Below are positions 1 through 59,827 of a stretch of 64,000 nt of DNA, one piece after another. This stretch comes from Rivularia sp. PCC 7116 (GTDB taxonomy: Bacteria > Cyanobacteriota > Cyanobacteriia > Cyanobacteriales > Nostocaceae), in the NCBI RefSeq assembly GCF_000316665.1, contig NC_019678.1:1674001-1738000 (forward strand). Reading direction: 5' to 3'. The notes under the pieces were generated by a model. The model was not told the DNA's origin. It was given only the letters and a program-made list of their open reading frames with translations, and made no database searches. The translations under genes were made by a program, and so were the position numbers. Numbering within the stretch: position 1 is the first letter of the stretch; every line of letters begins with the position of its first letter.

Positions 1-3000
1 TCAATATATTGCGTTATTTTTTTATCAACTAATTCAAGGTTATTTCCACTTAAAAATAAATTTTTACTTATATTCCAAGCACTATAACTTGCAAATTCTA
101 TATCACCAGTTTCTATTCCATTTTGTATACCTTCTTGCATCGACAAAATTGTTTGCTTCACTGGCTCTTTAAAATGTCCAATCATAGCGTTGAACAAAAA
201 ATAAATTTTGCACTTGAGTGAACTAGCACTCATTTTGTCAAGCACTGATATACTTAAACGCCCGAATCTATAACCTTTTTCAATATCTCCAAATTTTTCA
301 CATAGTATTGCACCATAGGCATCATAAGCGAAAGCAGCAGCCCCACAATTACCATATTTAACTGATAACCGAACCATTGCCAATACTGCTAATGGAAAGT
401 ACAAAGAGCCTCCCATACTAGCAGCAGGAGCTATAAGCATTAGTATTTGCATAGCAGCTAGTTTATAAGCATCAGTCATTCTAGGCAAATAAGCTAAATC
501 TTCGATTTTTCTTCCAGCTAAAGTTAATTTAGTTTGCAAAGCAGAAACCAAAATATACCCCATTTTTGGTTCGGCAGGTAATCGCACACCGAGTAGCTTT
601 AAAACCTGGACTCCTATTTCTAAAGCTTCTGACATACGGTTTTGAGCGATACTAGACTGGATCTGAATTTCATATATTCTGACTTTATCCAAAATAGTAT
701 TAGCTTTTTGCAGTGTGAACTTGCCTAATTTTTTTGATTTTTCAAAATTACCATGTAGATATTCTGCTTCTACAGCCTCTATATGTATGCTTAATATTAG
801 TTCGTAGCTATTTTGCCAATTACAATTTTCTAAAAGCCCTAATGCTATATTTAAATACTTAATGGCAGATTCATAAGCTGTAGCTGTTTTTGCTTTTCTC
901 CCTGCCATCAAATTAAGTTTTGCTAACTCTTCTTTCTGATATTTATTCTCAATTAGAGCTACACCAAAATTTAGCTGATTCACAATATCTAAAATATTGT
1001 CCGAAAGTAATTCTGGTGGGGTTTTCTTTAATAATAACTGACCTATCTTAAGATGAGTTGCTTTTTTATCTGATTCTGGAATGAATGAATATGCTGCTTG
1101 CTGAACGCGGTCATGTAAAAATCGATAACCAACTCTTGAAATGTTGGACTTTAAACTAATTACAGATAAATTTTTATAGCTTATATCTTTATCATCTTTT
1201 TCTATATTGTCTTCAAATACTAAAGGTATTTTGTAAGCTTCACTTAGGGGTAAAATCAATCCAGCCTGTAACGCCGCGTCTAATTCTTTAGCAGTACTGA
1301 CTGAAAATTTTTCGTTTACAATTGACAGCACATCAAGTGTAAATTTATCTCCAATACAGGCTGCTAGCTGCAATACTTTTTGTGTAGATTCTGGTAGTTT
1401 TTTTATCCTATTGGCTACTAGCTCTACTATACTTTTGTCAGTTATACCTATAGTTTGAATTTCTTCAATATCCCACTTCCACATTCCTTGACTTTTCTGT
1501 TTATTCATTAGAGACGAGAAGGGAGTAAAATCGAATTTTAAAAGGTTTTCTTGATAAAGCGTTTGCAATAGTTGATTAATGAAAAAAGGATTGCTACCAG
1601 TTTTATTATAAATTAACTCAGCCAGAGTATTGACTCTTTCTGTATCGTCGTTTAAAGTTTCAGCTACTAACTGAGTTACATCTGTAATTTCAAGTGACTT
1701 TAAAACAATATTATTAACAATTGCATTATTTCTCTCAATTTCTTCTACAGTCTGAATTAAAGGATGAGTTGAACTAACTTCGTTATCGCGGTAAGCTCCA
1801 ATCAGTAGTAAATGTTTAGTTTCGGATTCACCAGTCAATATTTGCATCAACTTCAATGTTCCAGAGTCTGCCCATTGTAAGTCATCAAGAAAAATAACTA
1901 AAGGATGTTCTTTTTGAGCAAAGACATTAATAAACTCGGAAAAAACACGATTAAAACGGTTTTGCGCTTCCATTCCAGCCAATTCGGATATTTCCACTTG
2001 TTTACCAATGATGAGTTCAACTTCTGGAATTACATCAATGATTACCTGTCCATTTGCACCAACAGCAGCTAATATTTTGCTGCGCCATTTTTCGAGTTCA
2101 TTTGCACTTTCTGTAAGTAGCTGCTGCATCAAGCTACTAAAAGCTTGAATTAATGAAGCGTAAGGAATATTGCGTTTGAATTGGTCAAACTTACCGCTAA
2201 TAAAGTAACCGCGCTTTTCGGTAATAGGTTTATTTACTTCGTAAACTACTGATGATTTACCAATTCCCGAGTACCCAGAAACTAGCATCAGTTCGCGACT
2301 TCCTTTACTGACTCTTTCAAAAGCATCAAGAAGTAGATTAACTTGAGTTTCCCTACCGTAAAGCTTTTGAGGAATGAGTAATTGACTTAATATATCCAAT
2401 CTTCCTGGTTGGAACTCAACAATCGTTCCCGTCATTTCTAACTGTTCGCGACACAGTTCTAAATCGGCTAAAATTCCTTTTGCTGTTTGATAGCGGTCTT
2501 CGGCGTTTTTCGCGATCAACTTTTTTACTACATTTGCGATCGCATTAGGAACTTCTGGATTTAGTTGTTGAATTTGAATGGGTTGTCTAGCAATATGGGA
2601 GTGAATTAACTCTAAGGGGTCTTTACTTTGAAAAGGTACTCTACCAGTAAGCATTTCATAGAAAGTTACACCAAGCGAATAAAAATCGGTGCGATAGTCA
2701 AGGACTCGATTCATTCTCCCGGTTTGCTCAGGAGACATGTATGTTAATGTTCCTTCAAGTTGGTTAGGGTCAGTTAATAGCAGTTTTTCCTTACTGAGTC
2801 TTGAAGCGATACTAAAGTCAGTAAGCTTAACTTGTCCTGTTTCAGAATTAATAATTATATTATCAGCTTTAATATCTTTATGAATAATGTTGTGTGAGTG
2901 CAGCGAGACTAAAGCTTTTGCTAATTGAACTGCAATATTTAAAAACTTTAATAAATTTAATTTTTGGTTATTAAGTACTTTTTTAAGAGATTGTCCCCCA

Positions 3001-3266
3001 AAATCTTCTAATACCAGTATCAAACGATTTTGCTCGGTTTCAAGCCTTAATATTTTAACGACACCTTCTAAGTCAAGATTTTCAGTAATTTTATATTCGT
3101 GCTTGAGACGAGTAATCGCATCTAAAGTAGGATAGTCTTCTTTAAGTATTTTAAGAATGACTTTTTGCTGATTTTTTTGCAATGTACCCCGATAAATAAT
3201 GGTGTTGATTCCTTCGTATATGACTTCCGTAATGTCATAGCCAGGAACCAAGGTAGATGTGAGCAT
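1..3266 (-). CDS. HstK-type Ser/Thr kinase-AAA signalling protein (C-terminus cut by window edge)
   Basis: The reading frame is open from an ATG at 3266 to the window edge, about 1,088 codons without a stop. A Hanks-type kinase domain fills roughly residues 10-265, with the catalytic loop reading HKDIKADN near residue 130 and the metal-binding motif reading DFS, not DFG, at 150-152. A P-loop ATPase follows, with Walker A GYSGIGKSS near residue 330 and Walker B VIFLDDLQWAD. The rest is helical and TPR-like. In the cyanobacterial HstK family this order continues into GAF and histidine-kinase or other output domains, which here would lie left of position 1; that is inference. It is probably a cytoplasmic sensor linking Ser/Thr and His phosphorylation. 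The DFS and HKD variants may lower or change kinase activity. The domain call is safe; the output domain is unknown. Confidence 0.9.
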   Translation of the reverse strand, partial: MLTSTLVPGYDITEVIYEGINTIIYRGTLQKNQQKVILKILKEDYPTLDAITRLKHEYKITENLDLEGVVKILRLETEQNRLILVLEDFGGQSLKKVLNNQKLNLLKFLNIAVQLAKALVSLHSHNIIHKDIKADNIIINSETGQVKLTDFSIASRLSKEKLLLTDPNQLEGTLTYMSPEQTGRMNRVLDYRTDFYSLGVTFYEMLTGRVPFQSKDPLELIHSHIARQPIQIQQLNPEVPNAIANVVKKLIAKNAEDRYQTAKGILADLELCREQLEMTGTIVEFQPGRLDILSQLLIPQKLYGRETQVNLLLDAFERVSKGSRELMLVSGYSGIGKSSVVYEVNKPITEKRGYFISGKFDQFKRNIPYASLIQAFSSLMQQLLTESANELEKWRSKILAAVGANGQVIIDVIPEVELIIGKQVEISELAGMEAQNRFNRVFSEFINVFAQKEHPLVIFLDDLQWADSGTLKLMQILTGESETKHLLLIGAYRDNEVSSTHPLIQTVEEIERNNAIVNNIVLKSLEITDVTQLVAETLNDDTERVNTLAELIYNKTGSNPFFINQLLQTLYQENLLKFDFTPFSSLMNKQKSQGMWKWDIEEIQTIGITDKSIVELVANRIKKLPESTQKVLQLAACIGDKFTLDVLSIVNEKFSVSTAKELDAALQAGLILPLSEAYKIPLVFEDNIEKDDKDISYKNLSVISLKSNISRVGYRFLHDRVQQAAYSFIPESDKKATHLKIGQLLLKKTPPELLSDNILDIVNQLNFGVALIENKYQKEELAKLNLMAGRKAKTATAYESAIKYLNIALGLLENCNWQNSYELILSIHIEAVEAEYLHGNFEKSKKLGKFTLQKANTILDKVRIYEIQIQSSIAQNRMSEALEIGVQVLKLLGVRLPAEPKMGYILVSALQTKLTLAGRKIEDLAYLPRMTDAYKLAAMQILMLIAPAASMGGSLYFPLAVLAMVRLSVKYGNCGAAAFAYDAYGAILCEKFGDIEKGYRFGRLSISVLDKMSASSLKCKIYFLFNAMIGHFKEPVKQTILSMQEGIQNGIETGDIEFASYSAWNISKNLFLSGNNLELVDKKITQYI

Positions 3267-3536
3267 TACACAATCCTTCCTAGAAGACTATAAATGTGTT
3301 TGTATATCTAGGGTTCCCCAATATTCAGTTTTTTAAACACTTATAGGGGAAATTTGCTTAAAATTTAAAATATATTGTCAACTAGAGCAAAATTTTTATA
3401 TGTGTTCTAAACTAAAAAATAATAATCCTAAACTAAAAGTTTATGAATATAAAAATAAATCCTGCCGACTTAGACTTATAAATAACTGATTGCCCGCTTT
3501 AATGTTTCAATAATTTTTGAACAAAATCAAAATTGT

Positions 3537-5168
3537 TTAATTAATGCTTGCTTGAGTTATTTCTTCATACTTAGGTAAAGCTAAAATCATTTGTGGCAAA
3601 CTAGGTTTAGAACAATATATTAATTGCGAGTTCAAGAATTTCAATAATGGCTGTATATGTACATCTTCTAACCATTCACTCGCTAAATCCTCTATGATAT
3701 GGTGTTCTGCGATTAGCTTACCTTTAGAAAAACGGCGAACAATTGGGTGAATAAATGCACTTTCCTGTGCTGCTTCTGTATTTTCTTTATGTATGCGCTC
3801 TATTGCAAAAGGGTTTTTATTAGCTTTAAAGATATCTAAGCCAAACTCTAAACTAATAGTGTAATAATGATTATTGTTACCTAATTCACTGTCATGCACA
3901 TAATCAGTAGGAAGTTCTTGGTAGTATTGAGCATATTTATTATCATCTAATATTACAATTACATCGCATAAGAAACCAGTTTGTTGCCATAAACCCGCAC
4001 TTATATTGATGCGCTCGATAATTTCATTAACGATTTTGTCTGGAGTCAAACTAATAGTCTTACATGGTAAATTATGATTTTCATATTTCTTGTCTAATAT
4101 ATGATGTAAAGCACGAATATTGTGGCGAAATCCATGAATAAAGCCGGATTGTTTTTTCTTGAAATCTCGCATATGCATCAACACTCCAGCAAAATACAAG
4201 TCTTTAATATTACTTGATTCCCATTCTGATGTTTGTTCTGGGAAACGGTTATTAATTGTCAATTGGGGCTTACAACTTTCATCAAAAATGGAAGCATCAA
4301 AGCGCCACCCAGCACATACAATTATGCGGTCATAAATTAAGCTTTCTTTTTCTTGATGTGCATGTGCATAGCTAAAAGATACTACAAACTTATTGTTCTC
4401 ACGTTTAATATTATCAATAGTTGCATCAATGACAACATTTTGAGATTTTAGTTGATAAGTATCTAATATATTGTTATTTACCGCTCTTAAATGTCCTACA
4501 TACTTAGTTTCCCATGCCATTTTTACAGGACTAGGACTAGCTAAATGAATTTGGGCGGTTGTATCAACTAAAGCATCAGCAGTTTCAAACCCTGAATTAC
4601 CTTTTCCTATAATTAATACTTTCTCATTGATAAAATCTTCTGGATTAACAGAAATTTCTGTATAGTTCTCGGCTAATTCAATACCAGGAATTGCAGGAAC
4701 GTAAGGTTTTGTAAAACCTGTAGCAATAATCAAGCGCTTACATGTAAAAGTATTCCCATTAGCGTCTACTAATCTAAAATTATCATCTTTAGAGATTTTG
4801 ACTATCTTAGTATCATAGCTAATTTTGATATTAAAATGATTTGCAAAATCATTCAGATATTCGACTAATCTATCAGCATTAGGAAAATATCGTTTACTAT
4901 AATTTTTAAATAGCATTTCTTCACTGTCACTTAGTAAAGAATTCCAGTCCCATCTTAAGTTAATTTCTGGATTATCATACCCTGTATAAACTTTATTAAT
5001 GGAAATAAGTTTACGGTGTATAGGATACTTTTTAAAGAAAGTTCCTGGTTTTTCTCCTGCTTCTAATATGAGATAATCACGATTAGCCTTTTCAAGAAAA
5101 TAACCTAGTTGCAATCCAGCAGGACCAGCACCAATAATTAAATAATCAAATTCTTTTTTATAATTCAT
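3537..5168 (-). CDS. FAD/NAD(P)-binding flavoprotein, FMO/FOXRED2-like
   Basis: The protein has 543 residues. An N-terminal FAD Rossmann motif (IIGAGPAGLQLG, about residues 11-22) and a second dinucleotide motif (IIGKGNSGFETA, near residue 190) mark a two-dinucleotide-binding oxidoreductase of the flavin-containing monooxygenase/Pyr_redox_3 type. An ATGF segment sits between them as in this family. The last 150 residues are an extension resembling that of FOXRED2-like proteins. It probably uses NAD(P)H to reduce FAD and to hydroxylate or oxidise a soluble substrate that cannot be named from sequence. It lies 164 bp downstream of the heme-oxygenase-like diiron protein on the same strand, so the two may be co-transcribed and act on one metabolite. 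Fold confidence is high; reaction confidence is low. Confidence 0.8.
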   Translation of the reverse strand: MNYKKEFDYLIIGAGPAGLQLGYFLEKANRDYLILEAGEKPGTFFKKYPIHRKLISINKVYTGYDNPEINLRWDWNSLLSDSEEMLFKNYSKRYFPNADRLVEYLNDFANHFNIKISYDTKIVKISKDDNFRLVDANGNTFTCKRLIIATGFTKPYVPAIPGIELAENYTEISVNPEDFINEKVLIIGKGNSGFETADALVDTTAQIHLASPSPVKMAWETKYVGHLRAVNNNILDTYQLKSQNVVIDATIDNIKRENNKFVVSFSYAHAHQEKESLIYDRIIVCAGWRFDASIFDESCKPQLTINNRFPEQTSEWESSNIKDLYFAGVLMHMRDFKKKQSGFIHGFRHNIRALHHILDKKYENHNLPCKTISLTPDKIVNEIIERINISAGLWQQTGFLCDVIVILDDNKYAQYYQELPTDYVHDSELGNNNHYYTISLEFGLDIFKANKNPFAIERIHKENTEAAQESAFIHPIVRRFSKGKLIAEHHIIEDLASEWLEDVHIQPLLKFLNSQLIYCSKPSLPQMILALPKYEEITQASIN

Positions 5169-5332
5169 TTTATACTATTTTGTATTTTGTTAAATAATTA
5201 CTTTAAAGATAAAAATAATCCTGTATAAAAGTTACAATTATAGAATACAGGATATATAAATTAAGGTATTTGTTTGGATTATTGCTAGCTATTCCTGAAA
5301 AAGATTCAACTTAATATTTATTAAATTACTGA

Positions 5333-6079
5333 TTAATTATTCACTAAAGGTTCCTCTAAAGGAGTAGCCTTTAAAAATGGCTGTTCAAAATAGTTATTTT
5401 GAGCATATTTCATCAAGTTGTTAACTAATTCAGAAAAAGTTGTATAAACAGTTTCAACTATATGTATAGCTTTTGCTTTCTCATCATCAGTCAGTTGAAC
5501 ATGTTCTAAAAGCTGCTCCATATTATCCATCCCAGCAAACACATGACCTGTTTCTACAGCAAGATGAGACGCTGAAAAATAACGATTTCGCTTTTGAGTA
5601 ATTTGTTCAAGTTCTTGACCCACTTCTGCAAATGCAGAAAAAGCCACAATTCCTGTTGCTTCTACAGTTTCAATCGCAACTAATTTTATAGCTGTACTAG
5701 CATTGAGAGTACTTGCAACTAAGTTATAAGCAAGTAAGCGTGCTGTTTGTGTCTCTTCACCCCATAAAAACCTCAAAGTATCACTTAACTTTAAAGAAGA
5801 ATCTAAACCTAATCTTTCTAAATCTGTAAGAAACCACTTCCAATGACGACCATCTTCATAACTATGAAAATTAATCATCTTTTGAATTGGATCTGTAGTT
5901 GGTTCCTTTCGTAGGATACAGTTATTTAAATCCTTTACACTCATTATTAGCGGAATTACACAAGGAACCCAAACTAATCTTTGTCTAGGATGTATGCTTT
6001 TATCTCGCAAGAACTGAAAAAATGGAAGCTGTGCAAATTCTTTATTTCTCTTCTCAATTAGTTCTAAAACTTCTTTCAT
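5333..6079 (-). CDS. Heme-oxygenase-like diiron oxidase/oxygenase (HDO-like)
   Basis: This 248-residue, all-helical protein has candidate metal ligands spaced as in heme-oxygenase-like diiron enzymes (the fold of UndA, BesC, CADD and the SznF central domain): E75 and H79 in YEDGRHW, E137 or E140 in IETVEATG, and H172, E176 and H179 in SHLAVETGH. Proteins of this superfamily use two irons and O2 for N-oxygenation, C-C cleavage or desaturation. No heme-oxygenase sequence signature is evident. The ATG at 6079 opens the likely transcript; the flavoprotein gene follows on the same strand. The ligand assignment is my reading of motifs, not an alignment. A TenA-like or PqqC-like non-metal fold is the main alternative. 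Confidence 0.65.
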   Translation of the reverse strand: MKEVLELIEKRNKEFAQLPFFQFLRDKSIHPRQRLVWVPCVIPLIMSVKDLNNCILRKEPTTDPIQKMINFHSYEDGRHWKWFLTDLERLGLDSSLKLSDTLRFLWGEETQTARLLAYNLVASTLNASTAIKLVAIETVEATGIVAFSAFAEVGQELEQITQKRNRYFSASHLAVETGHVFAGMDNMEQLLEHVQLTDDEKAKAIHIVETVYTTFSELVNNLMKYAQNNYFEQPFLKATPLEEPLVNN

Positions 6080-55696: not shown

Positions 55697-56450
55697 TTTT
55701 CCTCCTGATAATCTTGGAATTGAGGTTAAAATACGCTTCAAAGATGCTACCCGAAGCGTTTACTAGTTATTTCAAGCGATGGCTATAAATGGGAACTAAT
55801 AAATAAAACGATTTATCCCGCTACTTTTCTATATAAGAAAAGCAATATGGAAGCCCTTTTCACCCATATTTGAGCAAGAGTCAAAATCAAAAAGTATTTC
55901 TAGCCAACAGTCTTGCTGGCTCAATACAAGTATCAATATCTATCCGAGTCTAACTTGGAGAGTGTAAAAAGAAAATCCGAAATATCACCCTATTAAGCAG
56001 TTGATACTTTTACCATAAATATTCAGCCAGATAAATCTTTAGTACTGCTCTAAAAAAGTTATACCTGCCTTCACAAGTATCCACTCTAAGCAAGTATTTA
56101 ATATTATTTTCCTGAAAATAGCAAAATCAATCTATCCTTCTAAAGTTATATATTTACTGTTTGACCCATATGATGAATTGAAACTTAATATTTTTGCGAA
56201 CCGTTTTCCAGAATTCTAATAATACATCATTGAAAAGCACTTTTTTCATAAAACTTAGGGGATTCCCCTAGGTTCAATAGTTACCCCTAGCGATGAAACC
56301 CTTTAAATAAAGGGGTTTTCCGAATATTTTTAATCTTATTAGCTTGAGGGAATTGTCTGCGAATATAGTTTATTTAACAGAGAAACAAATTAGTATTTAA
56401 TTACTTTCTGTTTTTTTAATTATTTTCACTTTTCATGTAAAAAAGTAACT
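55697..56450. other. Intergenic region with minor hairpins
   Basis: AT-rich with short palindromes near 56268-56281 (AGGGGATTCCCCT) and 56300-56318 (CCCTTT...AAAGGG). The left end carries the promoter of the leftward small gene, the right end that of the gene at 56451. No other gene was found. Confidence 0.5.
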
Positions 56451-56816
56451 ATGTTAAAAATTATTTATGGCGACAATAACTTAAGCTTAGATTGCTTGGA
56501 TGGATGTTTAGAAGATTGGATAAACACAAGAGTTGCGATCGCTGTGCGTAGCGCTACGGGGATTCATATTGAATCTAGTACGGCTTCTTTTCTATTACCG
56601 GCAAACTCATCTACCATAGCCCAGGTAGAAAATATACAAGACGCAAATGTAGTGGAATTCTGCCGCTGCGATGCCAAATCACTTGAAGTTGTGTTGAAAG
56701 GTATCTGGTTAACATCAGAATTAGAAAGTGAAACAGGTGTATTCGTAACCAAACTCAAGGATGACACTGAATATTTATTGCAGAATATGTTTGAACCTAA
56801 ATTTTGCCCGGTTTAA
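56451..56816 (+). CDS. Uncharacterised cyanobacterial protein
   Basis: The 121-residue soluble product is beta-rich with a mildly acidic composition: MLKIIYGDNNLSLDCL, DWINTRVAIAVRSATGIHIE and GVFVTKLKDDTEYLLQ. It contains four cysteines, two of them in CRC near residue 72. I do not recognise a family. It lies just left of the Y-like RNA and vWA gene on the same strand, 53 bp from the first paired base of that RNA, so a shared transcript is possible. Confidence 0.6.
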   Translation: MLKIIYGDNNLSLDCLDGCLEDWINTRVAIAVRSATGIHIESSTASFLLPANSSTIAQVENIQDANVVEFCRCDAKSLEVVLKGIWLTSELESETGVFVTKLKDDTEYLLQNMFEPKFCPV

Positions 56817-56868
56817 CTAACTTTATAGTCTAATTTTATAATTAATCATTAAAAATTATTTACAGTCT

Positions 56869-56953
56869 TGCTGTTCGCGGGACTATGGTACGACTTCCGA
56901 ATCCCATCTTGAAACTGGTAATAGTCAGTCGTGCCGCCTTTCCCCGAACAGCA
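56869..56953 (+). ncRNA. Candidate Y-like RNA upstream of Ro-type gene
   Basis: By inspection, TGCTGTTCG (56869-56877) pairs perfectly with CGAACAGCA (56945-56953). After a bulged C, GGG (56879-56881) pairs with CCC (56942-56944). An asymmetric internal loop follows, then GGTACGACT (56887-56895) pairs fully with AGTCGTGCC (56927-56935), with one G-U. An alternative 6-bp helix GACTAT (56881-56886)/ATAGTC (56921-56926) competes. The top region contains TTCCGAATCC, reminiscent of a T-loop. Bacterial Y RNAs that bind Ro (TROVE) proteins have a closed end-to-end stem with tRNA-like parts and are usually beside the Ro gene, which fits. The strand assumed is that of the gene. The alternatives are a leader attenuator or a degenerate mobile palindrome. 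Confidence 0.5.
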
Positions 56954-56979
56954 TCCCCTCTTCAATTTTAAATTTCAGA

Positions 56980-58443
56980 TTGATATTTTCTGTCTCCTCT
57001 GGTTTATTTGTGATGAATGCTACTTTAAATAACCGTGCCCAAGAAGTAGCACGGGAAGATTTAGTCATGTTTATTAATGCTTGTTTGTCCTGTACGGGAC
57101 AGCGAGAATTCTATGATGATGCTTACGGGCAGAAAGTTTCAATTGACTTTTTGCATCAATATATTTTAGGTAATTACCGATTGCTGTACGCCCGTACTTT
57201 AGCAGCAGGCATTAATCATTTTAATCAAGCACAAATAATCTTAAATTTATTAGCTACAGGAAAAAATACATCCCACCAACATCGAAAAGAAGAAGGTGCA
57301 TTGATTGCCTGGGCACTCCAACAACTACCCCCCCAGCGTGCTTGGGGAATATTACAGCAGTTAAGACAGCGGAAAATAAACAACCGTCGCAGTCGTGCAA
57401 TTGCTCGCGATTACTTAAAATATCGCCGCAATCTTGATTTTGATGCAGTTAAGTATCGTTCTAAGTTAAGAGCCATTGTGACTCACGCGCATCTCCAACT
57501 TCAAGGTGAATTAGGTGATTTTCTCTTTCGTAATTGGAAGCAAAAACTATATGAAACAGAATTATTTGAAAACTTCCGTCAAGCTCATTTTAGTCAAGAA
57601 GCAGTTTACAAATTACCTTTTACTGTTGCCGAAGGTTTAGCAGTAAAACACAAAATTAAACGCGAAGTCTTCCTATCGCGCATCCAAGAAAGGATGACTT
57701 TAAACGAAAAACTGCGTTTCCAAAATGCTGGTGAAGGCGCAAAAATCAATATTGACGTCGATTTAGGTCGTCTTTCTTTAACCAAGCTAGCATTATATAT
57801 ACTTTCCTTACCCGTGGAAACTCGAAAACAGAAGCGAGATATTTTCGATTTAGCTCTAGAAAAATCCGCTCGCAAAACATTAAGCAAAGCACCGATGAAA
57901 TTGGGAAAAGTAGCGGCAGTCTTGGATTGTAGCTATTCGAGCTATGGTTCTTCCGAAAAGCGTCGTCGTCCTTTGGGTGTGGCTTTAGCTACTCACTATT
58001 TATTGAAAACTGCATCTAAAGAATATCAAGACTTTTGGACTCTACCACCTTTAGATGTATTGCAAGTACGTCCAAAAGGACAATCCGATTTAGCAACACC
58101 TGTATTAGACGCATTAGAGTGGGGTGCAGATTTAGTCGTAATTGTTTCCGATGGCTGCGAAAACGATCCACCATGCGGTGCGGCTCAAGTATTGCGTGTT
58201 TTTCGGCAACGTTTAGACTCAAAAAATCGTACATCTATAGTTCACTGCAATCCAGTTTTCAACTCGGATGATTTTTCTGTACGTTCTTTATGTGCCGATA
58301 TTCCTACCGTAGGGTTACGAGACGCTGAAGATTTACCAACTATGCTTGGCTTTGCTCAATTTGCCAACGGTTCGGCTTCTTTGTTTGATTTAGAAGATTA
58401 TTTAGCTCATAGAGTTAATCGTCAATTATCAATAAATAAGTAA
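56980..58443 (+). CDS. Ro/TROVE-like vWA-domain protein
   Basis: The 487-residue product has a helical HEAT-like first two thirds (about residues 25-290) and a von Willebrand A domain (about 305-470). The vWA has a full metal-ion site: D316-S318-S320 in VLDCSYSS, T373 in LATPVL, and D391 in VIVSDGCEND. This two-part layout is that of the Ro60/TROVE family, ring proteins that bind misfolded RNA and Y RNA. The TROVE assignment rests on architecture and NNRRSRAIARDYL-like basic helices, not on an alignment. The start may be residue 13 (MNATLNN, at 57016), as no clear ribosome-binding site marks 56980. A candidate Y-like RNA lies 26 bp upstream. The ARPP-like gene follows on the same strand with a repeat between. 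Confidence 0.75.
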   Translation: MIFSVSSGLFVMNATLNNRAQEVAREDLVMFINACLSCTGQREFYDDAYGQKVSIDFLHQYILGNYRLLYARTLAAGINHFNQAQIILNLLATGKNTSHQHRKEEGALIAWALQQLPPQRAWGILQQLRQRKINNRRSRAIARDYLKYRRNLDFDAVKYRSKLRAIVTHAHLQLQGELGDFLFRNWKQKLYETELFENFRQAHFSQEAVYKLPFTVAEGLAVKHKIKREVFLSRIQERMTLNEKLRFQNAGEGAKINIDVDLGRLSLTKLALYILSLPVETRKQKRDIFDLALEKSARKTLSKAPMKLGKVAAVLDCSYSSYGSSEKRRRPLGVALATHYLLKTASKEYQDFWTLPPLDVLQVRPKGQSDLATPVLDALEWGADLVVIVSDGCENDPPCGAAQVLRVFRQRLDSKNRTSIVHCNPVFNSDDFSVRSLCADIPTVGLRDAEDLPTMLGFAQFANGSASLFDLEDYLAHRVNRQLSINK

Positions 58444-58461
58444 GTAAACAAAAATATTTAC

Positions 58462-58562
58462 TGTCATTGCGAGCGAAGCGAAGCAATCCCAGCCCTTGCG
58501 ATGAGTCGCACATAAAGGTGAACGCTGAATGCTTCATTTCACTTCGTTCCATTCGCAATGAC
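58462..58562. repeat. Inverted-repeat element, TGTCATTG family, copy 2
   Basis: This 101-bp element begins TGTCATTGCGAGCGAAGCG and ends TTCGCAATGACA, the two ends being imperfect inverted repeats. It shares ordered blocks with 6865-6980 (reverse strand). It lies between the vWA gene and the ARPP-like gene, 18 bp after the first stop, and so probably forms a hairpin in any shared transcript. Confidence 0.75.
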
Positions 58563-58642
58563 ATTGTGTAATTAATTATGTTTAACTACTTATTTAATGA
58601 TGGTTGAGTAGCTGATAATTGATAATTGATAATTGATTTAAA

Positions 58643-59827
58643 ATGGCACAAAAGAAAAATATACTAACTAATATATCTCTTAAAGGATTAGATATTGCTC
58701 CTTCTCAAGTACGTGGTGCGGTAAGAATTTTACCATTATTAAGACGGAATGTACGCGACGATTTACGTTTGATGAAACGTTCTTATAATGACGATTTAAC
58801 TGTCGTATCTGTAGATAAAAACCTTAATTATTATGCTTATATTCCTCATGGGTTAGTGATGTCTTGGACTGATGACGGTAGTCCGGTGGCAGCTTTGGGA
58901 GGACAAATTCAAAAAATAAAACAACAAACAAAATCTGATGGTAAAAACTTAGATTGTGGTTGTACGAGCGTGCGTTTAATGCATCGCATGAGAAAAAAAG
59001 AATCCCAGAATCAATTAAGATTTTTACCCCTACATTTAGCAATGGAAGGTTTTCTTTCCATGTTTTTTTCTGGTCCGAATATTGCTTGGAGCGAATACTC
59101 TAAATATGCTCTTGCAAATGGTTTAGGTTGTCGTTACGAAACTGCCGTACAAGGACGCGAGATTGCGAAATTGGAAGATGCATTGCGGGTATTTGAAATT
59201 CACCCCAAACAGGTGGGGGTATTAATATTTGTAGCAGAAGCTTTAGCATCAGCTTTTGTGGTTCCTACCCCAGAAGATTATCGTTTACTGCATAGGAGTT
59301 TATTAGAAGACTTTTATGGTGAATTAATTTATCAATATGGTTTGCTTCACGATACAACTTTTCCTATGGATGTATCTATTAATGAATCAGAAATTAATAG
59401 TTTAAAAAGTTTAAGAGCGGCTATTAATAAAATGCGAATGGATTGGGCTTCTTTTCAAGGTTTTATGGCGAGTGGAATTTTAGATAGTCCATGTCAATCT
59501 AAAATAGTTTATAATGCTGGGCCATTTAGATTGCAGCGGTTTATTACCAATATAGAGCTTAAAGGTGAAAATCATATTGGAGAAGTTATTACTAGAGAAA
59601 ACGGAGAATTAGAATATTTAAAATCTTTTCGTTTATCTACCGCGCAAACAAAGCGAGTTTACTTACTAAGTAAATTAGCCGAACACAATTGGAATATTAA
59701 TGCTACTGCCGAAGCACTCGGAAATAATTATGATAGTTTTGTCCATCGTTTAGAAAAAGCTGGTTTTGGTTATTTATTAAATCAGCAAGTACGCGAACAA
59801 GTTCTTAAGAGAAGACGGAAGAAGTAG
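58643..59827 (+). CDS. ARPP-like protein with C-terminal Fis-type HTH
   Basis: The 394-residue product has a large alpha/beta N-terminal part (about residues 1-325) and ends in a Fis-type helix-turn-helix (about 345-380: NWNINATAEALGNNYDSFVHRLEKAG, given here as ATAEALG and FVHRLEKAG). The body has a cluster of short motifs: YIPHGLVMSW, DCGCTSVRLMHR, and ALASAFVVPTPEDYRLL. It resembles the cyanobacterial family named ARPP-2 (ARG and rhodanese-phosphatase associated), described with Ro-TROVE and vWA proteins in RNA repair and conflict systems; I recall this from memory and could not check it. It follows the vWA gene by 199 bp on the same strand. No catalytic residue can be assigned. It may regulate the operon or contact nucleic acid through the HTH. 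Confidence 0.65.
   Translation: MAQKKNILTNISLKGLDIAPSQVRGAVRILPLLRRNVRDDLRLMKRSYNDDLTVVSVDKNLNYYAYIPHGLVMSWTDDGSPVAALGGQIQKIKQQTKSDGKNLDCGCTSVRLMHRMRKKESQNQLRFLPLHLAMEGFLSMFFSGPNIAWSEYSKYALANGLGCRYETAVQGREIAKLEDALRVFEIHPKQVGVLIFVAEALASAFVVPTPEDYRLLHRSLLEDFYGELIYQYGLLHDTTFPMDVSINESEINSLKSLRAAINKMRMDWASFQGFMASGILDSPCQSKIVYNAGPFRLQRFITNIELKGENHIGEVITRENGELEYLKSFRLSTAQTKRVYLLSKLAEHNWNINATAEALGNNYDSFVHRLEKAGFGYLLNQQVREQVLKRRRKK

Follow-up and report, generated by a model that had tools for sequence, protein, structure and literature searches.

We analysed a stretch of 64,000 nucleotides from Rivularia sp. PCC 7116 (contig NC_019678.1, positions 1,674,001 to 1,738,000 of the forward strand), called here in its entirety the window, and describe in it a small structured RNA together with the genes beside it. 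Four elements follow one another on the + strand: a gene of the alr0857 family (56451..56816; E 2e-37), a neighbour that the RNA has in some of the cyanobacterial loci; the conserved RNA (56862..56956, the span of our model R1, with a score of 102.1 bits), recognised by this score, its fold and covariation; a gene for a 476-residue vWA protein with a predicted Ro60 fold (57013..58443); and a gene for a 394-residue ARPP-2 protein with a helix-turn-helix (HTH)-like C-terminal region (58643..59827). The start of the vWA gene was placed at the ATG at 57013 by agreement with its relatives, which leaves 59 bp between the end of the RNA's terminal stem and the start codon. The list of open reading frames (ORFs) has a TTG at 56980 instead, and the 26-bp gap proposed in the initial annotation of this DNA rests on that TTG.

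The two ends of the RNA are joined by a terminal stem of 9 bp (56869-56877/56945-56953, + strand), which, like the inner helix of 9 bp (56887-56895/56927-56935), can be read directly from the sequence as first annotated. Between them lie a single bulged nucleotide, C 56878 in the window RNA, and a GGGA/UCCC middle helix (56879-56882/56941-56944); the latter had been taken for a 3-bp stem and in fact has 4 bp. The conserved unpaired letters are the CU that follows GGGA and a UUCCG at the start of the loop (56895..56899), and a short hairpin is formed by 56904-56906/56916-56918. The segment 56860-56965 has a predicted folding energy of -37.7 kcal/mol (z -5.8), a value equalled by none of 200 dinucleotide shuffles.

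Covariation of the stems across relatives had been named at the outset as a test of this structure, and compensatory changes were indeed found. Profile searches of 150 related genomes gave 36 copies of the RNA upstream of vWA genes, in 28 of 30 loci; in a MAFFT alignment of these (A1), 17 of 25 pairs were changed on both sides and 95.1% of cells could pair, compared with 33-48% when the partner was slid. When 28 distant copies were aligned on their own with MAFFT and refolded, the same two main helices came out, with double changes in 14 of 22 pairs. Alignment of 91 copies to R1, which is made to the model and so biased towards it, gave 96.0% paired cells (37-47% slid) and double changes at 20 of 25 pairs; the double-change count was matched by 3 of 500 shuffle controls and the remaining measures by none of the 500. 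The RNA forms a conserved family whose changes are compensatory. Its GGGA/UCCC helix is nearly invariant, UUCCG is kept in 98-100% of the 91 copies, and the single 5′-side bulge is present in all 91, 70 times as C and 21 times as U.

The family corresponds to no entry in the libraries searched. Rfam gave no match in the window at the gathering score and none in a 4.7-kb region at E≤5, while the RNA alone returned only mir-129 (E 5.7) and Chlorobi-1 (E 7.3), so a known Rfam family was rejected. A tRNA or tmRNA was likewise set aside when ARAGORN found none; it should be noted that this test is not discriminating, since canonical Y RNA loci are also blank. Complementarity of the RNA core to the rRNA operon of the same genome was too weak to be of use: GACTTCCG had 0 sites (0.09 expected), ACTTCCG 2 (0.37), CGGGACT 1 (0.37) and GGGACT 1 (1.5).

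The RNA is closely tied to the vWA gene. Among the 150 related genomes, a search with the vWA protein gave matches in 39 genomes (30 loci), and R1 found the RNA in 32 genomes, exactly those that carry the full-type protein; the remaining seven matches are six distant paralogues and a 26-residue stretch in G089. From a genome collection we kept the best 80 of 226 stretches, hereafter the named loci, which by their record labels come from five phyla; 53 are cyanobacterial and 27 belong to Myxococcota, Armatimonadota, Planctomycetota, Gammaproteobacteria and others. Seventy-five of the 80 have the RNA, in 88 copies, every one upstream of the vWA gene and on the same strand. A whole-genome search recovered it in 26 of 26 named genomes (those of the other five loci plus 21 more), and in three of the five it is found near a contig edge. 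In a 386-genome sample of the phylum, 14 genomes matched R1 and 18 the vWA profile; 13 of the 17 full-type proteins had an RNA found by R1, three further full-type loci (L149, L150, L151) have a divergent RNA upstream (34-45 bits), and a contig with a full-type protein and no RNA found (G179) ends at about the gene. One additional RNA match, in G290 (29 bits), lies inside an ORF and was taken as chance. Judged by such comparisons, it is close to certain that the RNA–protein module is real and widespread. Viral spread was considered and rejected, as 59 stretches matched a pattern and none encodes a relative. For the larger alignments, A7 comprises 71 of the 80 named loci together with L149-L151, L048, L049, L166 and the window, omitting the five loci without RNA and four close copies (L078, L101, L117, L137); A6 comprises 25 of the 27 non-cyanobacterial loci and L149-L151; and four reverse-strand matches in set A3 were excluded from the counts.

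Two records in this collection call for separate mention. In G136 (L050, 6865-7722), the vWA frame is cut to 285 residues and stands beside transposase-like ORFs, with the RNA retained and ARPP-2 not found; this looks like a decaying system. Locus L109 comes from a record labelled Comamonas, yet its RNA and proteins are close to Myxococcus loci, and the record is possibly mislabelled.

The vWA protein of the window has no significant sequence match in Pfam, NCBIfam, PADLOC or the PDB, and with PADLOC blank, a known defence protein was discarded as a candidate. When Pfam was run on 45 homologues, only scattered weak matches appeared, among them an isolated HD-CE (E 0.00096, the only match under 0.001) and PF25045 vWA_Ro60 (E 0.11), each in one member, and TROVE (PF05731) was found in none. 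The AlphaFold model (predicted local distance difference test score, pLDDT, 83; predicted template-modelling score 0.78) has the form of a helical-repeat ring closed by a vWA domain, and all eight of its PDB matches at E≤1e-3 are Ro60/Rsr chains, including Rsr of D. radiodurans (2nvo, E 6.4e-7). These matches span 529-544 alignment columns, gaps included, for the 476-residue model, and the next match falls to E 0.048 with a template-modelling (TM) score of 0.13. The Ro60 layout surmised in the initial annotation is thus borne out at the level of the predicted fold, and the metal ion-dependent adhesion site (MIDAS) that it called complete is so: all of the 45 homologues share D305, S307, S309 and D380, while residue 358 is T in 41 of them and S in 4. 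The motifs NNRR, KYR and HxH of the helical domain are equally invariant. Alignment A4 holds 44 of 79 named ORFs and the window's own.

The third constant component is the protein encoded at 58643-59827. Described at first as an ARPP-like HTH protein, it is a clear member of ARPP-2 (PF22549; 379.9 bits against a cut-off of 27, E 7.5e-114), and the HTH part of that description found only an HTH_30 match below the Pfam cut-off (E 0.014). ARPP-2 lies downstream of the vWA gene, on the same strand, in 73 of the 80 named loci. Of the 32 genomes with the RNA, 31 have an ARPP-2 match above 300 bits, as does G039. Among 792 neighbouring ORFs, wide recurrence across phyla is seen only for the vWA protein (69 loci in the ORF set) and for ARPP-2 (65). 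Alignment A5 contains 36 of 66 named ORFs and that of the window. A model of ARPP-2 (pLDDT 67.5) gave no PDB fold match at E≤1e-3, and we found no known function for the family.

Taken as a whole, the locus resembles the Ro60/Rsr–Y RNA system in its predicted ring-plus-vWA fold, its MIDAS and the adjoining small RNA with a bulged terminal stem. In the available parts of PMC4726728 and PMC4030889, the Ro60 binding site on Y RNA has a single bulged cytidine; this hallmark is present here, but the U in 21 of 91 copies departs from the strict rule. To YrlA (RF02553), the RNA is alike in size, in the long stem that joins both ends and in its place beside a Ro-type gene. The gene neighbour differs from that of Ro60/Rsr loci, being ARPP-2 and not RtcB; as first annotated, no RtcB lies at the locus, and a profile search of the window's genome placed RtcB matches only elsewhere, at C1:3.55 Mb and 7.50 Mb. 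At the former (G000:C1:3553350-3555068), an RtcB-like frame is split by about 500 nucleotides without stops, possibly an intein.

Canonical TROVE proteins were found in 52 of the 150 relatives; 22 of these belong to the 32 genomes with the RNA, and 30 to the 118 others. This distribution indicates that the two systems are separate and able to share a genome, as they do in that of the window (G000). Five canonical TROVE loci of cyanobacteria (L148 being that of the window's genome) served as a control; when they were scanned, a tRNA or YrlA match was obtained upstream in five of five at E≤0.1, and in two of five at the gathering score with faster filters. Six scanned loci with our RNA gave no tRNA or YrlA match; a weak match to a miRNA family occurred elsewhere in L106. 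The control RNAs, located 5′ of the TROVE genes (L055 2501-2619, L056 473-623, L057 2595-2822, L058 2973-3097 and L148 1663-1910), are scored either as YrlA short of its cut-off or as tRNAs carrying long inserts, and are probably unannotated Y RNAs.

We consider it probable that the RNA is a Y-like partner of the Ro-like ring, and it seems similarly likely that the locus specifies a ribonucleoprotein (RNP) working in the manner of Ro and Y RNA, a second lineage of this type with ARPP-2 as its third part. The RNA would be made from its own gene as a product of about 85-95 nucleotides that acts in trans. Its terminal stem with the bulged pyrimidine, together with the GGGA/UCCC helix, would bind the outside of the Ro60-like ring, for which the bulged lower stem of Y RNA bound to Ro60 serves as a model, and the bound RNA would control access of other RNAs to the ring. 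The UUCCG loop, which takes the place that the tRNA-like module has in bacterial Y RNAs, may recruit a partner, with ARPP-2 or a nuclease as candidates. ARPP-2 could itself act as an effector at RNA or ribose ends, or as a regulator through its HTH-like end. Such a particle would likely serve to deal, under stress, with RNA that is damaged or misfolded. We give roughly even chances to the broader proposal that this is an independent second class of Ro–Y RNP, present in five phyla or more. In that class, a Y-like RNA that is tRNA-free and has a UUCCG loop would link a Ro ring invisible to profiles to ARPP-2, which would replace PNPase or RtcB as effector or regulator of an RNA-damage response.

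Several observations weigh against a Ro–Y RNP. The vWA protein lacks the TROVE sequence match that defines Ro60/Rsr. The initial annotation had named a match of the N-terminal domain to a non-TROVE family as a refuting outcome; for the window protein no such match was found, which is in favour of the proposal, but TROVE did not match either: comparison by hhalign with four cyanobacterial TROVE proteins gave a probability of 5.8, which is not significant. The fold match to Ro60 has TM-scores of only about 0.5 and a root-mean-square deviation of about 8. The RNA has neither a tRNA-like domain, which YrlA carries according to the part of PMC8394870 available, nor an Rfam Y RNA match, and it does not contain, as such, the three-nucleotide bulge found opposite the cytidine in Y RNAs of vertebrates. 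Lastly, the position of the RNA just before the vWA gene and the promoter motif 5′ of it would also suit a 5′ leader. A set of residues that bind Y RNA in human Ro60 could not be placed on the vWA protein, because the profile alignment to TROVE is not significant.

The leader alternative holds that the RNA is a cis-acting element of the vWA–ARPP-2 operon, either an autoregulatory site for the Ro-like protein or a riboswitch. In its favour, the median distance from the RNA to the vWA start (picked by script) is 29 nucleotides over the 75 named loci with the RNA. An extended -10 motif, TGnTAnnnT, moreover occurs 29 times in 70 distinct upstream regions, and 22 of these occurrences fall 6-8 nucleotides before the model start, compared with at most three per offset in 200 shuffles preserving single-base content only. 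This position makes it likely that transcription starts near the base of the stem in many lineages, a predicted start that a separate gene and a leader fit equally. The spacing to the vWA start, however, ranges from -9 to 575 nucleotides. In L080, L082 and L084 (genomes G019, G051 and G029), the RNA is 519-575 nucleotides upstream, with the alr0857 gene between it and the vWA gene. Two to three tandem copies occur in 12 of the 75 loci. In G478 and G479, the RNA and the vWA gene are on different contigs, the RNA being placed between an alr0857 gene and a large GTPase-like ORF. The orphan RNA of G136 precedes an ORF on the opposite strand, and no same-strand ORF of 100 residues comes next downstream. 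In most loci the RNA is linked to the vWA gene and shares its strand, but in G478 and G479 it is unlinked and in G136 it is an orphan. Given the tandem copies, the unlinked RNAs and the orphan, we favour a trans-acting RNA and regard the leader as unlikely.

It is also conceivable that the vWA protein is Ro-like in fold only and has another job, the RNA serving ARPP-2 or some other protein. The missing sequence relation to TROVE would agree with this, and ARPP-2 is nearly as consistently present; in addition, over 37 loci the correlation of RNA distances with those of ARPP-2 (r 0.64) comes close to that with those of vWA (r 0.66). On the other hand, G136 keeps the RNA and a truncated vWA frame but not, as far as found, ARPP-2, while in G039 ARPP-2 was found, near a contig edge, without the RNA or the vWA gene. 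The bulged stem is also what Ro60 binds in the parts of PMC4726728 and PMC4030889 cited above. We hold this explanation to be improbable. A type III-style toxin–antitoxin system, in which repeated antitoxin RNAs precede a toxic RNase, would account for an RNA directly upstream, at times in tandem, and for the copies found on plasmids, but is very improbable in view of the Ro60-like predicted fold with its vWA domain, the blank PADLOC search, the single 95-nucleotide RNA in 63 of 75 loci in place of short repeats, and the presence of a second conserved protein, ARPP-2, in the set.

The window has a sigma-70-like promoter match 5′ of the RNA (TTAACT-18-TATAAT, 56813..56842, + strand), which is at chance level, with one found and 1.2 expected in shuffles. 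TATAAT-like boxes 5′ of the cyanobacterial copies numbered 31, compared with 31.3 in shuffles, again preserving single-base content only. By eye, myxococcal loci (e.g. L099, L105, L111, L116) share a GTCAG about 30-45 nucleotides before the RNA, 5′ of the extended -10 box. A palindrome, GGGGATTCCCC (56258..56268, no strand), lies 5′ of the alr0857–RNA unit in the window, and 18 of the 75 named loci have it or a close form in the 900 bases 5′ of the RNA; it is a possible regulator site, perhaps the operator of that unit. The alr0857-like cluster accounts for 19 loci among the 792 neighbouring ORFs, all cyanobacterial. Anabaena alr0857 belongs to a translation-stress regulon according to the portion of PMC10272220 available, which for the present system is a hint and no more. 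Another gene of this family lies at G000:C1:8118712-8119074.

The same genome contains a second vWA gene followed by an ARPP-1-like gene (L047 6350-8807, equivalent to G000:C1:8125349-8127806). This vwaB protein is homologous to the vWA protein described here (hhalign probability 98.2, E 4.9e-14), and the pair resembles ours in being completed by an ARPP protein. Nine vwaB loci gave no R1 RNA, and no common structured RNA was seen upstream of them. Read from their translations, the neighbours of the pair include an RNA-ligase-like ORF (5271-5720), a vWA ORF (2468-3901), and AAA-like and Nudix-like ORFs. On the conjugative Nostoc plasmid pn3 (L168, 5505-6244), a XisH/XisI pair stands between the vWA and ARPP-2 positions. 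In the part of PMC9503650 available, ARPP adjoins systems for which an action on nucleotide or ribose moieties is supposed. The neighbours named there are ARG-centred, HIRAN, WYL and deacetylase, and neither TROVE nor Ro60 occurs as a term in that text. The literature searched, including the available parts of PMC7824862, PMC7159879, PMC7790460, PMC8394870, PMC10272220, PMC9503650, PMC4726728 and PMC4030889, yielded no report of the RNA or of the vWA–ARPP-2 pair, and an earlier mention of the pair is possible.

Studies of Ro60 and Y RNAs cover few bacteria, and the Y RNAs of bacteria have been described as tRNA mimics. The RNA and the Ro60-shaped protein described here are likely a sister system to the known Ro–Y RNA machinery, one not listed in the sequence libraries searched. 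If so, a Ro-fold RNP without a tRNA mimic would separate what is essential, the bulged stem and the ring, from what is specific to a lineage, the effector module, and ARPP-2 would gain an RNA partner to test. It would also suggest a wider distribution of Ro-type RNPs than the one seen in TROVE searches.

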